The position numbers were made by a program, and so were the translations under genes. From NCBI GenBank assembly GCA_024281055.1, contig JAMXLF010000079.1, forward strand, positions 1 through 35,726: DNA of 35,726 nucleotides. Reading direction: 5' to 3'. The stretch's first letter is position 1. Every line of letters starts with the position of its first letter. The stretch is from Geobacteraceae bacterium. Its GTDB lineage: Bacteria; Desulfobacterota; Desulfuromonadia; Geobacterales; Geobacteraceae. Shown here in pieces: positions 24,967 through 34,004 of this stretch. The notes beneath the pieces are model-generated. The model had not been told where the DNA came from and did no database searches. It was given only the letters and a program-made list of their open reading frames with translations.

Positions 24967-24999
24967 AGACCTCCGAGGTTTCAAAAACCTCGGAGGTCT
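24967..24999. repeat. Perfect 15-bp palindrome supplying the cbiQ stop codon
   Basis: AGACCTCCGAGGTTT (24967-24981), CAA loop, then its exact complement at 24985-24999. This is a dispersed palindrome type common in many bacteria. The cbiQ stop, TAG (25000-24998), begins at its edge. Confidence 0.85.
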
Positions 25000-25756
25000 A
25001 CATTTGCCAGAATAACCCCATGCCCGCCACGAACAGGATGGCCACCGCCACCTCCGCAAACCGGAACGGTCGGTGCCGCATGAGCGGGAGGTTGCCGTCG
25101 TAGCCCCGCTGCACCATGGCAGTGGTAACGGTCTGGCTGTTGTCGAAGGCCTTGATGACCAGGGCTCCTGCGAGGGTCCCGAAAGAGCGCAGTCCCCGCC
25201 GGTAACCGGCATAGCCCAGGCGGTTCTTCTGGGCGCAGTACACCACCTGGGCATCGTCGAACAGGAGAAAGAGGTAACGCCAGGCGAAGAGAGCCACCTC
25301 GATGAGTCCCCACGGCACCCGCAGCCAGGCGAGCGCCGCCATCAGGTCGGTGAACGGGGTGGAAAAGCCGAGGAGCGCCACCAACGACACCGCCCCGCCG
25401 ATCCGGCTGGCGATAAGGAGCCCCTCCTTAAGGCCATCGAGGTGGCCGACGACATGAATGCCGAAGATTTGCCAGGAAAAGAGCGGCACCGTCCCGGCGA
25501 AGAAGAGCTTGAGGAGAAGCACCGTCACCGCGATGAAGAGGGGTTCGACGAAGCGCATCGCCAGCGCCTTCAGCCGCATCCCCGTCGTGACGCAGACAAT
25601 CATGCAGAGCCCCGCCACGAGGAGCGGAAAGAGGGTGCCCCTGCAACTGATCACCATCACCAGGAGCGTGAGGGCGCTGAGGAGCTTCACCCGCGCGTCG
25701 AGACGGACGAGGAGGCGGGAGGGGTCGTGGGTATGTGGGTGAAAGTGGTGGTGCAT
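24998..25756 (-). CDS. cbiQ: Cobalt ECF transporter transmembrane subunit CbiQ
   Basis: 252 residues. The T-component of the cobalt importer couples CbiO to CbiM. The N-terminus is histidine-rich (MHHHFHPHTHD). Hydrophobic segments lie at about residues 27-65, 70-95, 110-130 and 232-250. The cytoplasmic coupling motifs AQKNRLGYAGYRRG and AMVQRGYDGNLPL carry the Arg-Gly pairs that contact the ATPase. The protein ends FWQM directly at the palindrome that supplies its stop. The start, ATG 25756, follows the left repeat of the GxxExxY unit, which separates it from cbiN. Confidence 0.95.
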   Translation of the reverse strand: MHHHFHPHTHDPSRLLVRLDARVKLLSALTLLVMVISCRGTLFPLLVAGLCMIVCVTTGMRLKALAMRFVEPLFIAVTVLLLKLFFAGTVPLFSWQIFGIHVVGHLDGLKEGLLIASRIGGAVSLVALLGFSTPFTDLMAALAWLRVPWGLIEVALFAWRYLFLLFDDAQVVYCAQKNRLGYAGYRRGLRSFGTLAGALVIKAFDNSQTVTTAMVQRGYDGNLPLMRHRPFRFAEVAVAILFVAGMGLFWQM

Positions 25757-25766
25757 GATTACCGTT

Positions 25767-25857
25767 GTCTGAATCAGGATTTACAGGATTTAAAGATGGG
25801 CAGGATTACCGGCTTAAATCCCGTAAATCCTTAAATCCTGTAAATCCTGATTCAGAT
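25767..25857. repeat. GTCTGAATCAGGATTTA repeat, left copy
   Basis: A palindromic unit: GTCTGAATCAGGATTTACAG on the left and the reverse complement of CTGAATCAGGATTTACAGG on the right. It supplies the last 16 codons and stop of the GxxExxY gene. Its outer 41 bases match the outer end of the right copy in inverted orientation at 38 positions. Confidence 0.85.
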
Positions 25858-26225
25858 TTTTTGGGATTGAATACTTTCTTGTATTGCAGACTTGAAGCGC
25901 CAAAATTTATCAGAAGCCCGACAGGAAAATCATAAGCCAGTACATAGTTTTTTGCTTGTGCCAAATGAACATCTTCAAGATTTATCAACGCCTTTAGTTC
26001 GACAATTACCTTTCCTTCCACAACAAAATCTGCCCTTCTCGTGCCAACTTCGATCCCATCGTAATAAATTACTTGCTCAACTTCCCTTCCAAAGTTCAGT
26101 CCCGCTCGTTCCATCTCAATCGCAAGACACCGCTGATAAATGACTTCCTGAAAACCGTTGCCGAGCGCATTGTGCACTTTCATTGCACAGCCGATTATCT
26201 TATAGGTAACGTCTTCCAAACTCAT
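25806..26225 (-). CDS. GxxExxY protein (PD-(D/E)xK nuclease-like)
   Basis: 139 residues. The name-giving motif is G24-F-Q-E27-V-I-Y30. A PD-(D/E)xK-like core follows: RRADFVVEGKVIVELKAL, with Asp66 and E76-L-K78, then AQAKNYVLAYDFPVGLLINFG. The family is broadly spread and its function is unknown; nuclease activity is suggested only by the core motif. The start is ATG 26225, with AAAGGA seven bases upstream, 3 nt after the cbiN stop. The last 16 residues (SESGFTGFKDLRDLSR) are translated from the flanking repeat. The gene is clearly more AT-rich than the cob genes and has no role in cobalt uptake that I know of. Confidence 0.88.
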   Translation of the reverse strand: MSLEDVTYKIIGCAMKVHNALGNGFQEVIYQRCLAIEMERAGLNFGREVEQVIYYDGIEVGTRRADFVVEGKVIVELKALINLEDVHLAQAKNYVLAYDFPVGLLINFGASSLQYKKVFNPKKSESGFTGFKDLRDLSR

Positions 26226-26228
26226 AGT

Positions 26229-26699
26229 TTATCCTTTGTCTGAATCAGGATTTACATGATTTGAGGATTTCCTGGATAAACTAAAATCCGGCTCATCCTT
26301 CAATCCTGAAGATCCTGCATTTACTGGATTTGTAGATTCACTGGAGGAAGAATAATCCTGCCCATCCTTTAATCCTGCAAATCCTGATTCAGACACCAGC
26401 ATCCGCCAGGAGTACCCGGCCAGAAACCCGCCCACTGTGCCGGCAAGGAGAAAGACAAACAGGAGGAGGTCACCCTGGTCGGTATTGATGAACGGCTCCC
26501 GCTTCTCCCGGCCGTGTTCCTTTGCGTACTTTTCCACGACCGACTCATCGACCCCGGACCACTTTTCCGCACTGTAAGCGCGGGGAGAAGGGGTGAATGC
26601 AAAGGGCAAAAGGAAGAAAACCAGCATGAGCATCCAGAAGCGGCACTCTCGCCACACTCTCACCGATCCACGACACCTGATTCCAATCCTCTGATTCAT
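26229..26699 (-). CDS. CbiN-like small membrane subunit of the cobalt importer, C-terminus extended by a repeat
   Basis: 156 residues as read. ATG 26699 overlaps the cbiM stop (ATGA). An N-terminal membrane segment (FWMLMLVFFLLPFAF, about residues 21-35) is followed by an external loop, SAEKWSGVDESVVEKYAKEHGREKREPFINTDQGD, and a second membrane segment, LLLFVFLLAGTVGGFLAGY (about 79-97). This two-helix layout and its place after cbiM are those of CbiN, the small extracellular-loop partner of CbiM, though the sequence is not classical CbiN. Everything after WRML (about residue 101) is translated from a GTCTGAATC repeat and is unlikely to be functional. Confidence 0.72.
   Translation of the reverse strand: MNQRIGIRCRGSVRVWRECRFWMLMLVFFLLPFAFTPSPRAYSAEKWSGVDESVVEKYAKEHGREKREPFINTDQGDLLLFVFLLAGTVGGFLAGYSWRMLVSESGFAGLKDGQDYSSSSESTNPVNAGSSGLKDEPDFSLSRKSSNHVNPDSDKG
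26238..26394. repeat. GTCTGAATCAGGATTT repeat, right copy
   Basis: 157 bp, bounded by GTCTGAATC and GATTCAGAC, with further internal AATCC/GGATT arms. It is translated as the C-terminal 50 residues of the CbiN-like protein and forms the right end of the GxxExxY unit. Confidence 0.85.
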
Positions 26700-27451
26700 G
26701 CAGCCACCTCCCCAGCCCTCAATACTTTCATTTTCACGAGCAAATCGGGCCTCTTCTTGTAAAGCAGAACCACCATACCGGCGGTCATGGCCCCTTCCAG
26801 GATACCAAGCGGAAGTTGAGTCGGAATGAAGGCGAGAAGAATCTTCCAGAATAAGGGAGAAAACGGCTCGCTCCCCCGGATGCCCGAAGCGAGCTCCACT
26901 GATGTGGTTATATAGGTGGCCCAGTCGGTCAGGAGCCCGGCCATGAACCCCGCAACGGCGAGACTCGCACCAATTTTCCGCATCCCTCGGAACACGAGCC
27001 AACCGGCGAAGGAACCGGCGACCCCCATAGAGATGATGTTCGCGCCGAGGGTGGATAAGCCACCGTGGGCAAGGAATAGGGCCTGGATGAGGAGCGCCAC
27101 CGCCGCGACCAGAACGCTGACGAACGGGCCAACCAGGATCGCGGCGATCCCGGTTCCGCACGGGTGCGAGCAGGTGCCGGCGGTCGGCACCGGAATCGGC
27201 ATGCAGGAGACGACAAAGACCACCGCCGCAATCAAGCCGACTAGCGGCTTCATGGACAGGTCTTCCTTCGCAAGCAAGTTTAAGTGCCTCAGCCCCAGCG
27301 CCACAAACGGCGCCGTCACCGCAAACCAGAGCGCAGCCCAGTTGAAAGGGAGTATCCCCTCAGAGATGTGCATGGCGTGGGCAGAACTGGAGAAAAATAG
27401 AGTTGTAATAAAACTTGTTAAACTGACGACAAGAATTTTATTGCGATTCAT
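26696..27451 (-). CDS. cbiM: Cobalt ECF transporter substrate-binding membrane subunit CbiM
   Basis: 251 residues from ATG 27451, with AAAGGAGC nine bases upstream; the open frame back to 27640 crosses the riboswitch. A signal peptide (to AHA, residues 24-26) exposes Met27-His28. In CbiM/NikM the N-terminal Met-His is a metal ligand, so cleavage here creates the binding site. Further family features are HISEGILPFNWAALWF, MPIPVPTAGTCSHPCGTGIAAILVGP, ALFLAHGGLSTLGANIISMGVAG and LPLGILEGAMTAGMVVLLYKKRPDLL. It is the first gene after a cobalamin riboswitch, so cobalt uptake should fall when B12 is plentiful. Confidence 0.95.
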   Translation of the reverse strand: MNRNKILVVSLTSFITTLFFSSSAHAMHISEGILPFNWAALWFAVTAPFVALGLRHLNLLAKEDLSMKPLVGLIAAVVFVVSCMPIPVPTAGTCSHPCGTGIAAILVGPFVSVLVAAVALLIQALFLAHGGLSTLGANIISMGVAGSFAGWLVFRGMRKIGASLAVAGFMAGLLTDWATYITTSVELASGIRGSEPFSPLFWKILLAFIPTQLPLGILEGAMTAGMVVLLYKKRPDLLVKMKVLRAGEVAA

Positions 27452-27510
27452 TTGTGTGCTCCTTTGAGTTGGTTTCCTGACACCGCGTTCCTCAGCATAA
27501 GGAAATAGCC

Positions 27511-27543
27511 TCATAGTCGCAGCGGACATGCTCTGCTTTCCAT
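27511..27543 (-). CDS. 10-codon mini-ORF between riboswitch and cbiM
   Basis: ATG 27543, then Glu-Ser-Arg-Ala-Cys-Pro-Leu-Arg-Leu, TGA at 27511. It is preceded by AAGGAGG at ideal spacing, the strongest ribosome site in the leader, and ends 59 nt before cbiM. It may be a translated leader used by the riboswitch; no other evidence. Confidence 0.35.
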   Translation of the reverse strand: MESRACPLRL

Positions 27544-27582
27544 AAAAACCTCCTTTTTCCCCTCGGTCGGAGTGTTCTTTCA

Positions 27583-27732
27583 CCTTCCAGCCAGGTCTCC
27601 TGGCTTGGGGATCTTCCCGTCTGCCGCGCCTTCCCGCCATAAGACAGTGGCATCATTGCGGCATCAGTCCCCCTTTACAGTTGCGGGGCAGCACCGGTCT
27701 CGCACCGGTTTCCCTTGACTGAAAGGTCGCTT
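27583..27732 (-). promoter_or_regulatory. Cobalamin riboswitch upstream of cbiM
   Basis: The minus strand shows the aptamer in order: AAGGGAAACCGGTGCGAGACCG, CTGCCCCGCAACTGTAA, the conserved GCCACTG, GGGAAGGCGCGGC, and the closing AAGCCAGGAGACCTGGC. No strong terminator follows; a translational expression platform is possible. Confidence 0.96.
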
Positions 27733-27782
27733 TTCAATTTTAAATTTCGGTTATTTCATCTCTCTGCAGTAAGGGGGCTTGC

Positions 27783-29090
27783 TTAAATTTTATCCCCCCT
27801 CAGATCCCCGGAAAACAGCTTCCCCGCCCCGCGCGAGGCGCAGAAGTCACCGCACATGGTGCAGGTCGCCTCGTCCTCGGGGGTACGACTGGCGCGAATC
27901 GCCCGGGCGTCCTCGGGGTAGAGGGCGAGCTGGAACTGCTTTTCCCAGTCGAGGTCGCGCCGCGCCTTGCTCATCTCCTTGTCCCGCTCCCGCGCCTTCT
28001 CCGGGTACTTGTTCATGTCGCCGATGTATGCTGCTATTTTAGCGGCCTTCACCCCCTGGCGCACGTCCTCCTCGTTGGGAAGCGCCAGGTGCTCGGCCGG
28101 GGTGATGTAGCAGATGAGGTCGGCGCCGTAGCGGGAGGATTGGGCCGCCCCGATAGCGGCGGTGATGTGGTCGAAACCGGGGGCGACGTCGGTGGAGATC
28201 GGTCCGAGCATGTAGTAGGGGGCGCCGCCGCTCATCCGCTTCTGGAGCTGGATGTTTCCCTCGACCTCGTCCAGCGGCACGTGTCCCGGCCCCTCCACGA
28301 GCATCTGGCACCCCATCTCCCGGCCGATCTCCGCCAGCTCGCAGTTGATGAGGAGCTCCTGGATCTGGGCCCGGTCGGAGGAGTCGTGGATGGCACCGGC
28401 ACGCAGGCCGTTCCCCAGTGACAAAACGGTATCATATTTTTTCAGGATCGCCACCACCCGGTCGAACCGCTCGTAAAGGGGGTTCTCGCGGCCGTTGGCA
28501 AGCATCCAGGCGACCATGGATACCCCCCCCTTGGAGACGAGGCCGCCGTAACGGTACCCCTGTTTGCGCAGCCGCTCGATGGTGTAAAGGTTGATGCCGC
28601 AGTGAACCGCCATGAAGGCCATGCCGTCCGCGCACTGCCGCTCGATCAGGTCGAAGAGAAGCTCCTCGTCAAGCCTGTTCGGGTCGCCGTATTTGCGCGC
28701 CGCCTCGCAGAACGCCTGGTAGAGGGGGACGTTCCCCACCGGGAGGTCGACGGCGGCGATCACCTCGCGCCGCACCCGGTCGAGATCGCCCCCGACCGAT
28801 AGCTCCATGAGGGTGTCCGCCCCGGCAGCCTCGGCTGCCCTGGCCTTTCGCACCTCGGCCTCATAGTCGATGATGTCGGAGGAGGTGCCGATGGAGGCAT
28901 TCACCTTGGTCCGCAGCCCCTTGCCGATGCCGACCGCCCGCGGCTTGCGGTTGTGGTTTCCCGGGATGACGACCTTCCCCTCAGCCACCATCTGGCGGAC
29001 ATACTCCGGAGAGACGTTTTCCTCCCGGGCAACGGCGGCCATCTGGGTTGAGATGATGCCCTCGCGGGCCAGTTCGATCTGGGTTTTCAT
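27783..29090 (-). CDS. bzaF: ThiC-like radical SAM enzyme, probably 5-hydroxybenzimidazole synthase BzaF
   Basis: 435 residues. ThiC family: MKTQIELAREGIISTQM, NASIGTSSDIIDYEAEV, DTLMELSVGGDLDRVRREVI, MAVHCGINLYTIERL, GGVSMVAWMLANGRENPLYE, EGPGHVPLDEVEGNI and APYYMLGPISTDVAPGFDHI. The C-terminal cluster site is C410-x2-C413-x3-C417. ThiC makes the thiamin pyrimidine from aminoimidazole ribotide. A paralog in Geobacter-like bacteria, BzaF, makes 5-hydroxybenzimidazole, the precursor of the B12 lower ligand. The position between cobB and cbiM, with cobT in the same operon, favours BzaF. True ThiC cannot be excluded without alignment. AGAGGT precedes ATG 29090. Confidence 0.8.
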   Translation of the reverse strand: MKTQIELAREGIISTQMAAVAREENVSPEYVRQMVAEGKVVIPGNHNRKPRAVGIGKGLRTKVNASIGTSSDIIDYEAEVRKARAAEAAGADTLMELSVGGDLDRVRREVIAAVDLPVGNVPLYQAFCEAARKYGDPNRLDEELLFDLIERQCADGMAFMAVHCGINLYTIERLRKQGYRYGGLVSKGGVSMVAWMLANGRENPLYERFDRVVAILKKYDTVLSLGNGLRAGAIHDSSDRAQIQELLINCELAEIGREMGCQMLVEGPGHVPLDEVEGNIQLQKRMSGGAPYYMLGPISTDVAPGFDHITAAIGAAQSSRYGADLICYITPAEHLALPNEEDVRQGVKAAKIAAYIGDMNKYPEKARERDKEMSKARRDLDWEKQFQLALYPEDARAIRASRTPEDEATCTMCGDFCASRGAGKLFSGDLRGDKI

Positions 29091-29110
29091 GTAACCTCTT
29101 TTCTTCCCCT

Positions 29111-29210
29111 GTCTGAATCAGGATTTACAGAATTTGATGATTTATTGGATTCAGCCCTTCTCACTACAGTAATCCTGCCCATCCTTCAATCCTGCTAATC
29201 CTGATTCGAA
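29111..29210. repeat. ORF-less GTCTGAATCAGGATTT repeat between cobB and bzaF
   Basis: 100 bp. The left end is GTCTGAATCAGGATTTACAG. The right end, reversed, reads GAATCAGGATTAGCAGGATT and reaches GATGGGCAGGATTA, as in the GxxExxY unit. It looks like a MITE-type derivative. Confidence 0.8.
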
Positions 29211-33746: not shown

Positions 33747-33802
33747 TCATGCTGCACCTAACCTGCCGGTCCCTCTCCTGCGGAGGTTCCTGTCACGGTC
33801 GA

Positions 33803-33970
33803 TCAGGCAGGTTTCCTGGCTTACGGTTCATTTTACTCGCCGCGCCTTCCCGGATGAAAACGGGTCCCCGTTTTCGTATACTCAGTGGCGTTGTGCGGCT
33901 TTCATCGCCGTTTACAGTTGCGGGACAGCGAAGGATTCCCACCTTCTTCCCTATTATCTCCGTACGGAGC
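33803..33970 (-). promoter_or_regulatory. Cobalamin riboswitch upstream of cobU
   Basis: Aptamer elements in order on the minus strand: AATAGGGAAGAAGGTGGGAA, CTGTCCCGCAACTGTAA, GCCACTG, GGGAAGGCGCGGCGAG, and AAGCCAGGAAACCTGCC. An extra stem, AAAACGGGGACCCGTTTT, is inserted in a peripheral arm. Confidence 0.97.
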
Positions 33971-34004
33971 ACCTGAACGAATAAACTGTTCGATTGTCAA
34001 TAAA

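Follow-up and report, generated by a model that had tools for sequence, protein, structure and literature searches.

GxxExxY nuclease genes between inverted arrays of short repeats look like a little-described kind of mobile DNA

A small gene between long inverted repeats, lying inside a cobalt-transport operon, raises the question of whether gene and repeats belong together as one element and, if they do, of how such an element would spread. The locus lies in a stretch of 35,726 nucleotides from a Geobacteraceae bacterium (GCA_024281055.1, contig JAMXLF010000079.1), which we call the window. The original prediction, made from the letters of the window, proposed terminal inverted repeats of 41 bp, matching at about 38 positions, around a single AT-rich gene for a PD-(D/E)xK-like GxxExxY protein. 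The repeats are real, with outer arms of 43 nt (Table 1), and the only gene inside scores 133.3 bits against TIGR04256 (GxxExxY; cut-off 35) and 127.7 bits against Pfam PF13366 (PDDEXK_3; cut-off 22), with a GC fraction of 0.41 against 0.62 for the whole window. No known recombinase or transposase is present in the element, whose sole gene matches PDDEXK_3/GxxExxY alone. Both ends are hairpins themselves, a second arm lying just inside each outer arm. The repeat is also translated on both sides: it supplies the C-terminus of the GxxExxY protein (SESGFTGFKDLRDLSR), and the ORF at the cbiN position likewise ends in translated repeat (SESGFAGLKDG...).

Table 1. Positions of the element, its repeats and its neighbours in the window
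Feature	Position	Strand	Description
Left outer terminal inverted repeat	25766..25808	+	AGGATT-type units about 9 nt apart; terminus TGTCTGAATCAGGATTT; 40/43 match to right arm
Left inner arm	25817..25856	-	Hairpin 1 with 25766-25808 (88%, 9 nt between arms); also codes the GxxExxY C-terminus
GxxExxY gene	25806..26225	-	139 aa, PD-(D/E)xK nuclease-like; D66, E76, K78, Q90, Y94
Right inner arm of hairpin 2	26237..26277	+	90% with left inner arm; 80% with right outer arm
Right outer terminal inverted repeat	26353..26395	-	40/43 inverted match to left outer arm
Gene-less hairpin copy of the window repeat	29110..29207		Between ThiC-type gene and cobB; 90% with left outer arm
ORF at cbiN position	26229..26699	-	156 aa; C-terminal tail is translated repeat
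cbiQ, next gene after the element	24998..25756	-	Pfam/NCBIfam profile match
Cobalamin riboswitch upstream of the element-bearing genes	27573..27737	-	RF00174, 101.5 bits

The cobalt-transport setting was also read correctly: cbiM lies upstream of the element, cbiQ downstream, and a cobalamin riboswitch heads the stretch. The ORF between cbiM and the GxxExxY gene has no Pfam or NCBIfam match, and 'cbiN position' names its place only. The long ORF taken as cbiM (26696-27640, minus strand) overlaps this riboswitch with its 5′ part, and its family match begins only at residue 90, so that the true cbiM start probably lies further downstream. A second cobalamin riboswitch is found at 33789-33991 on the minus strand. 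Inside the cobalamin gene cluster, a ThiC-type radical SAM gene (27783-29090, minus strand) scores 602 bits against the thiC model and 549 against a BzaB-like model, under the cut-off of 700 for the latter, and could be a lower-ligand biosynthesis paralog. The repeat-only copy predicted 2.7 kb from the element was recovered at that distance. The window's genome contains two further GxxExxY genes, each framed by inverted arms that differ in sequence from those in the window (L082, score 17; L116, score 21). Contig C55 carries another hairpin without a gene, and C35 a single arm.

Enrichment of the repeat beside GxxExxY genes, which the original prediction proposed as a check, holds in a general form: inverted arrays of short units, with units of the lineage's own, flank most genes examined. 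As a general GxxExxY mark the window's exact sequence is rejected, since it has matches in 14 of 48 genomes of the same family and within one protein subclade; those outside the window's own genome mostly carry three mismatches. The 48 genomes contain 114 GxxExxY hits in 44 of them, and the first 100 by E-value rank were analysed with up to 6 kb on each side, several being cut by contig ends. To score the arms, the 400 nt to the left of the HMM hit were compared with the 400 nt to its right, the best ungapped inverted match (+1/-2) giving the score; control windows were shifted by 2.5-4.5 kb from GxxExxY loci. The window's arms score 34; of 551 controls, 4 reach at least 13 and 1 at least 30. 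Scores of at least 13, 16 and 20 are reached by 84, 72 and 49 of the 100 family loci, against 4, 2 and 1 of the controls. When flanks are trimmed at ORF ends, 79 loci instead of 84 reach 13, because some arms run into the ORF. Orthologs are frequent among the 100 loci. Sorting the loci by protein type and common neighbourhood yields 53 groups, 42 of which have a majority at 13 or above; of the 38 singletons, 29 reach 13.

The same script, applied to gene types of the family genomes, finds arms of at least 13 at 25 of 28 GxxExxY genes, 22 of 27 S23 genes and 1 of 22 ParE toxin genes (2 of 22 with 800-nt flanks), after contig-end loci were dropped (3 of 31, 3 of 30 and 8 of 30, respectively). 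S23 genes, which encode a four-helix bundle, have matches in 43 of the 48 genomes. A phylum-level draw gives arms of at least 13 in 23 of 29 loci, with two of the misses (L260 and L262) short and off-centre. For named genomes the best 80 of 565 confirmed loci were scanned and 3 of these were skipped at contig ends; the remaining 77 reach 13 in 59 cases and 16 in 42, compared with 4 and 0 of 257 controls. Five of them are identical to family loci, without which the counts become 54 and 38 of 72, and one named-genome locus (L287) is the same DNA as a phylum-level locus. The named records include some labelled Bacteroidetes, Chloroflexi, Planctomycetes, Verrucomicrobia, Acidobacteria, Nitrospirae, Spirochaetota, Gammaproteobacteria, Nostoc and Methanosarcinales, many being metagenome bins in which single taxon labels may be wrong. 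Three of four GxxExxY loci on viral contigs have arms as well. At a score of 13, arms are absent from 16 of the 100 family loci and from 18 of the 77 named loci.

Arms are built from short tandem units, which include CGCAAAGA, CACGGAGA, ACAGGGATAA, CAGGATTTA, CGCAGATTTA and CACGAATGA across family and named loci, while the types AGGGAT, CGCAAAG and AATCAGGATTT are found among Geomonas/Geobacter relatives. The spacing of unit cores is mostly 8 nt in one class and 9-10 nt in the other. Under a stricter definition, with a single lag required to fit 60% or more of positions, a period of 8-10 nt is seen in 45 of 84 family arms and none in the other 39. Read inward, the upstream arm is more than 50% purine in 115 of 138 cases. 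Hairpins of at least 13 within a single flank occur upstream at 18 and downstream at 27 of the 100 loci, compared with 4.2% of controls, and palindromic ends like those of the window belong to a minority of loci. In these hairpin counts the upstream and downstream labels are unreliable for 5 of the 100 loci, whose strand was misassigned. Direct matches between left and right flanks are present at 46 of 100 loci and in 3.1% of controls. A different end family (CTCTAGAGAGCGAAGCGAACGGGCG-like), which by look is not made of simple tandem units, flanks the GxxExxY genes of L100, L106 and L075. When the 100 regions were scanned for further long inverted pairs, the 41 listed were mostly ordinary genes or hairpins; S23 genes are among the contents, as is one HicB-like gene.

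The unit sequence is co-inherited with the protein lineage, and this holds across phyla. Pairs of loci with shared flanks were excluded from the comparison because the flank itself would match. For the other pairs, a repeat is shared at a score of at least 18 by 27 of 44 with protein identity of at least 70%, and sharing falls with identity to 15 of 128 (60-70%), 31 of 506 (50-60%), 24 of 1,851 (40-50%) and 0 of 2,128 (below 40%). Arm cores can be sorted by the letters GAT or RAG, which leaves 34 of 138 arms in neither class and makes the 100% columns of these letters true by construction. Proteins with GxGFLE have GAT arms in 64 cases and RAG arms in 1, and those with GxGLLE have RAG arms in 34 and GAT arms in none; removing duplicates (133 loci) gives 60 and 1, and 34 and 0. 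The sole exception, L140, pairs a GxGFLE protein with RAG units. We considered a residue-by-residue specificity code, with F or L before LE, which fits 98 of 99 classed loci (94 of 95 without duplicates), yet it was rejected. In the protein tree, which contains five duplicate loci, the unit class changes twice and the GxGFLE/GxGLLE split is single. This amounts to deep co-inheritance and one independent event rather than many tests, so only co-inheritance is claimed.

For the window's own subclade, the terminus GTCTGAA[TC]C lies within 400 nt of the gene for all five FQEVIYQ-type proteins. These are the window and its four closest relatives, from other genera, all with GxGFQEVIYQ, whose proteins are 76% (L403), 63% (L404), 58% (L405) and 57% (L157) identical to that of the window. 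In the window, L157 and L404 the terminus flanks the gene on both sides; L403 and L405 have it only in the upstream hairpin, their downstream repeats having drifted. Among the other 98 family loci, the left form is found in none and a single right form in 1 (L091). The wider relatives taken for this comparison number 29, of which 5 at contig ends were unscored and 3 were scored off-centre. A pattern that allows two mismatches recovers L403, L404 and, once, L430 (41% identity, off-centre) among the 24 scored; it missed the terminus of L405, which was found by eye.

The protein carries the residues of a nuclease. E27, E76, K78, Q90 and Y94 are kept in 100 of 100 family proteins, and G24, Y30 and D66 in 99. 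An order of D, ExK and QxxxY is that of RecB-type nucleases. No relative in the PDB is found by sequence (best E 0.056), and structural comparison used an AlphaFold model with a mean pLDDT of 91.5. The closest PDB chain to the model is 4ic1 (SSO0001), which we take to be a Cas4 (Z 9.9 over 99 residues, 3.1 Å; Foldseek E 6e-5). Lambda exonuclease is a further structural relative (Foldseek E 1e-3), and the remaining matches are mostly restriction-type and other PD-(D/E)xK proteins with Z of 8.0 or below. By modelled fold and motif order, the GxxExxY protein is thus predicted to be a RecB/Cas4-like PD-(D/E)xK nuclease. Cas4 proteins have four conserved cysteines that hold an iron-sulphur cluster. 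No cysteine is found among the columns conserved in at least 88 of the 100 GxxExxY proteins, so there is no sign of that cluster.

The genes mostly follow the transcription direction of their surroundings. In the family, 65 of 95 run with both neighbours and 4 against both; in named genomes the figures are 47 and 7 of 67, compared with 202 and 80 of 421 background ORFs, which may include spurious ones. Given this shared direction and a median distance of 68 nt from arm to start codon, the simplest reading, which we infer from these two features, is that host operons rather than an own promoter drive the gene, and that wrongly oriented copies lose it. S23 genes share this habit, with 19 of 26 running with both neighbours and none against.

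S23 ORFs (TIGR02436) also occur in 23S rRNA intervening sequences, which resemble the GxxExxY loci in placing a single short ORF between terminal inverted repeats. The S23 loci examined here (L171-L200) have inverted arrays of mostly 7-nt units, for example GGGGACC, GTAAAAA, AGGGACT and GAGTTTT, with a period of 7 in 17 of the 22 loci with arms. Tandem heptamers are likewise described for the 5′ region of one 23S intervening sequence, from Coxiella, in the available part of PMC4990558, where this sequence has a 28-bp terminal stem and is excised by RNase III, and where the function and origin of such sequences are called unclear. The parallel is strong, and for this reason we keep a rival explanation in which the ends of the GxxExxY element pair in the host transcript as a long stem that RNase III removes, the protein being dispensable. 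The identical layout of S23 loci in the same genomes and the shared gene direction speak for such an RNA element. Changes in the two arms could be read in its favour as well. Columns altered alike in both arms number 45 against at most 12.4 expected in 49 non-independent pairs, and 12 against 3.1 expected in nine ortholog groups; 146 columns are altered in one arm only. A concerted change of the two arms is suggestive only, and pairing could also explain it.

Even so, we regard this RNA explanation as unlikely. Mismatches between arms are G-U in 92 cases and A-C in 111 (p=0.21; 156 elements, including one duplicate, L292), which gives no hint that pairing in the sense RNA is selected for, and RNA-level pairing as the cause of arm identity was rejected on these counts. 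Because G-U is not in excess over A-C, recognition at the level of DNA is favoured. The catalytic residues are invariant or nearly so, which argues for the importance of the protein. No Rfam family, rRNA included, is found in the 20 loci scanned of the 80 named ones; unlike intervening sequences, these 20 and the window do not lie in rRNA. The GxxExxY gene also gives no S23 match, its product having a predicted nuclease fold rather than a four-helix bundle, and its units are mostly 8-10 nt apart instead of 7.

Traces of movement come from related elements at unrelated sites. Three loci from three genera (L104, L128 and L155), with no shared flanks and proteins 73-87% identical, become similar where the left arm has its outer edge, but on the right the resemblance extends beyond the arm. 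Terminal inverted repeats are present as element ends, with a sharp left edge and a right edge that is not. Three other aligned pairs of loci gave no clear element ends. In the window, the element starts right after a conserved WRMLV stretch of the ORF at the cbiN position, and the repeat now codes its tail. Empty sites in relatives, which had been proposed as a way to define the junction, exist in part: the junction is empty in two related genomes (L125 and L127), where the corresponding ORF has a different tail and stop and is followed by cbiQ. A clean empty/filled pair was not found, the window insertion having also replaced the tail of the upstream ORF. No target-site duplication was seen in the window, in the alignments of L104, L128 and L155 or at the hotspot described below, and the insertions examined look old. 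At the corresponding junction upstream of cbiQ in another genome (L129, 4330-4680, genome G037), a CACAGAG repeat is followed by a ParE-type toxin gene, and other small genes may ride with such repeats.

Genus g7 offers a view of copy number. The gene upstream of one intergenic site is found in 18 of its 19 genomes, and this hotspot holds a CGCAAAG element in five genomes and an AGGGAT element in seven, the two proteins being about 35% identical. Elsewhere the site has hairpins or remnants without a gene, with swapped and decayed repeats, and in G027 no repeat was seen by inspection. The 19 genomes contain 43 GxxExxY hits and 1,521 arm-pattern matches (773 AGGGAT and 748 CGCAAAG), counted with up to 1 mismatch and with some overlap in longer arrays; reversed arm patterns give 0 matches in the same genomes. 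For the 80 AGGGAT matches of G011 and G013, a plus arm is followed by a minus arm 26-260 bp downstream 27 times, and the opposite order occurs 0 times. Many arms pair as hairpins without a gene, and derivatives that keep the same ends but no gene are present. Matches are also more numerous where the cognate gene is found, at 60.7 against 29.0 for the first pattern (7 and 12 genomes, p=0.003) and 62.4 against 18.6 for the second (9 and 10 genomes, p=0.002). These statistics ignore relatedness, and of the two cross-type controls one reaches significance as well (p=0.018 for that one, 0.18 for the second).

We therefore consider it probable, though well short of certain, that these loci are mobile elements whose nuclease acts on their own ends, with MITE-like derivatives. 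Such an element would be about 0.6 kb long, with 2-4 short units arrayed in inverted orientation at its ends; the units would mostly stand 8-10 nt apart and usually be rich in purines when read inward. The nuclease would recognise the repeated unit, several copies of which stand at each end, and would cut or process the ends, after which host replication and recombination could insert or copy the element elsewhere. Gene-less hairpins that keep their ends could be moved in trans. That the protein binds, cuts and moves the repeat is what we infer from these patterns.

That most copies lack the gene speaks for another reading, in which a different transposase moves the hairpins and GxxExxY genes are caught between copies or land on them. 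The g7 site that receives differing GxxExxY types holds gene-less hairpins too, and the CACAGAG repeat of L129 adjoins a toxin gene. An S23 gene lies within 5 kb of 7 of the 100 GxxExxY genes, where the expectation is about 0.45 (calculated with the 87 best-scoring S23 hits and genomes taken as 4.0 Mb each), which suggests that GxxExxY and S23 genes share landing sites. Set against a passenger role are the tracking of unit type with protein lineage across phyla and the rarity of such arms at ParE genes of the same genomes, and we judge it quite unlikely. A further possibility is that the repeats are operators or protective sites of a selfish or defensive, addiction-like nuclease, gene-less copies being decoys or remnants. 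An intact nuclease whose gene has a repeat array nearby in each flank would suit such a system. An operator need not be mirrored downstream, hundreds of arms with fixed polarity are hard to explain by it, and related elements recur at unrelated sites, all of which make it very improbable in our view.

The mobile-element reading invites comparison with known systems. By analogy, the element may work like an insertion sequence with its MITEs or like REP/RAYT, and the IS/MITE-like relation suggested at the outset gains support from the gene-less hairpins, the greater number of arms in genomes with the cognate gene and the related elements at unrelated sites. Insertion sequences share the inverted-repeat ends, the gene-less copies with the same ends and the scattered multicopy distribution. 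Unlike them, the GxxExxY element has no transposase of a known class and no target-site duplication was found at the sites listed above, and its ends are repeated units that vary with lineage. RAYT proteins are HUH/Y1 transposases that go with palindromic repeats. REP/RAYT systems are similar in that small hairpin repeats greatly outnumber the copies of the single enzyme gene linked to them; here the enzyme is a predicted RecB/Cas4-type PD-(D/E)xK protein with no Y1/HUH transposase, and its gene lies inside the element. With Cas4, lambda exonuclease and RecB nucleases the GxxExxY protein shares fold and the order of its motifs, and it differs from them in its link to repeats. By the features tested, the gene is a GxxExxY family member and the element is not an insertion sequence of a known class, REP/RAYT, a 23S intervening sequence or Cas4.

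Repeats of this form have been seen before in the genus Geobacter. PMC2700814, in the part available, describes 'global regulator sites' of Geobacter metallireducens as hepta- and octanucleotide families of 49, 48 and 16 copies, with tandem 7-8 nt units of which some are drawn as strand-switching (inverted) pairs. It reads the tandem units as IHF/HU binding sites or regulatory RNA, and that part draws no link from the sites to GxxExxY or S23 genes. Within the literature searched, which leaves subscription papers and most preprints outside, GxxExxY genes tied to such repeats were not found, including in the available parts of PMC2700814, PMC3543383, PMC10969869 and PMC4990558, and the repeat letters and the name PDDEXK_3 gave no match.

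GxxExxY genes with such flanks look like mobile DNA of a kind that is widespread and little described. More tentatively, and with rather less than even confidence, we propose that these elements form a new class of mobile DNA, found across bacterial phyla and on one or more contigs binned as archaeal. Its stand-alone RecB/Cas4-type nuclease would read a short unit, specific to the lineage and repeated at both ends, and would spread the element together with very many gene-less hairpins. On the same proposal, a parallel branch built on 7-nt units and another protein would comprise the S23 elements and, by way of these, the intervening sequences of 23S rRNA; the arrays that flank S23 genes may bear on the origin of those sequences. 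Multicopy hairpins of short units would gain a likely owner, a nuclease matched to them by lineage, and a nuclease family of unknown function would gain a substrate hypothesis. The 23S rRNA intervening sequences would take their place alongside a wider class of elements. If the match between unit and protein is direct, nucleases of varied short-unit specificity would become available for study.
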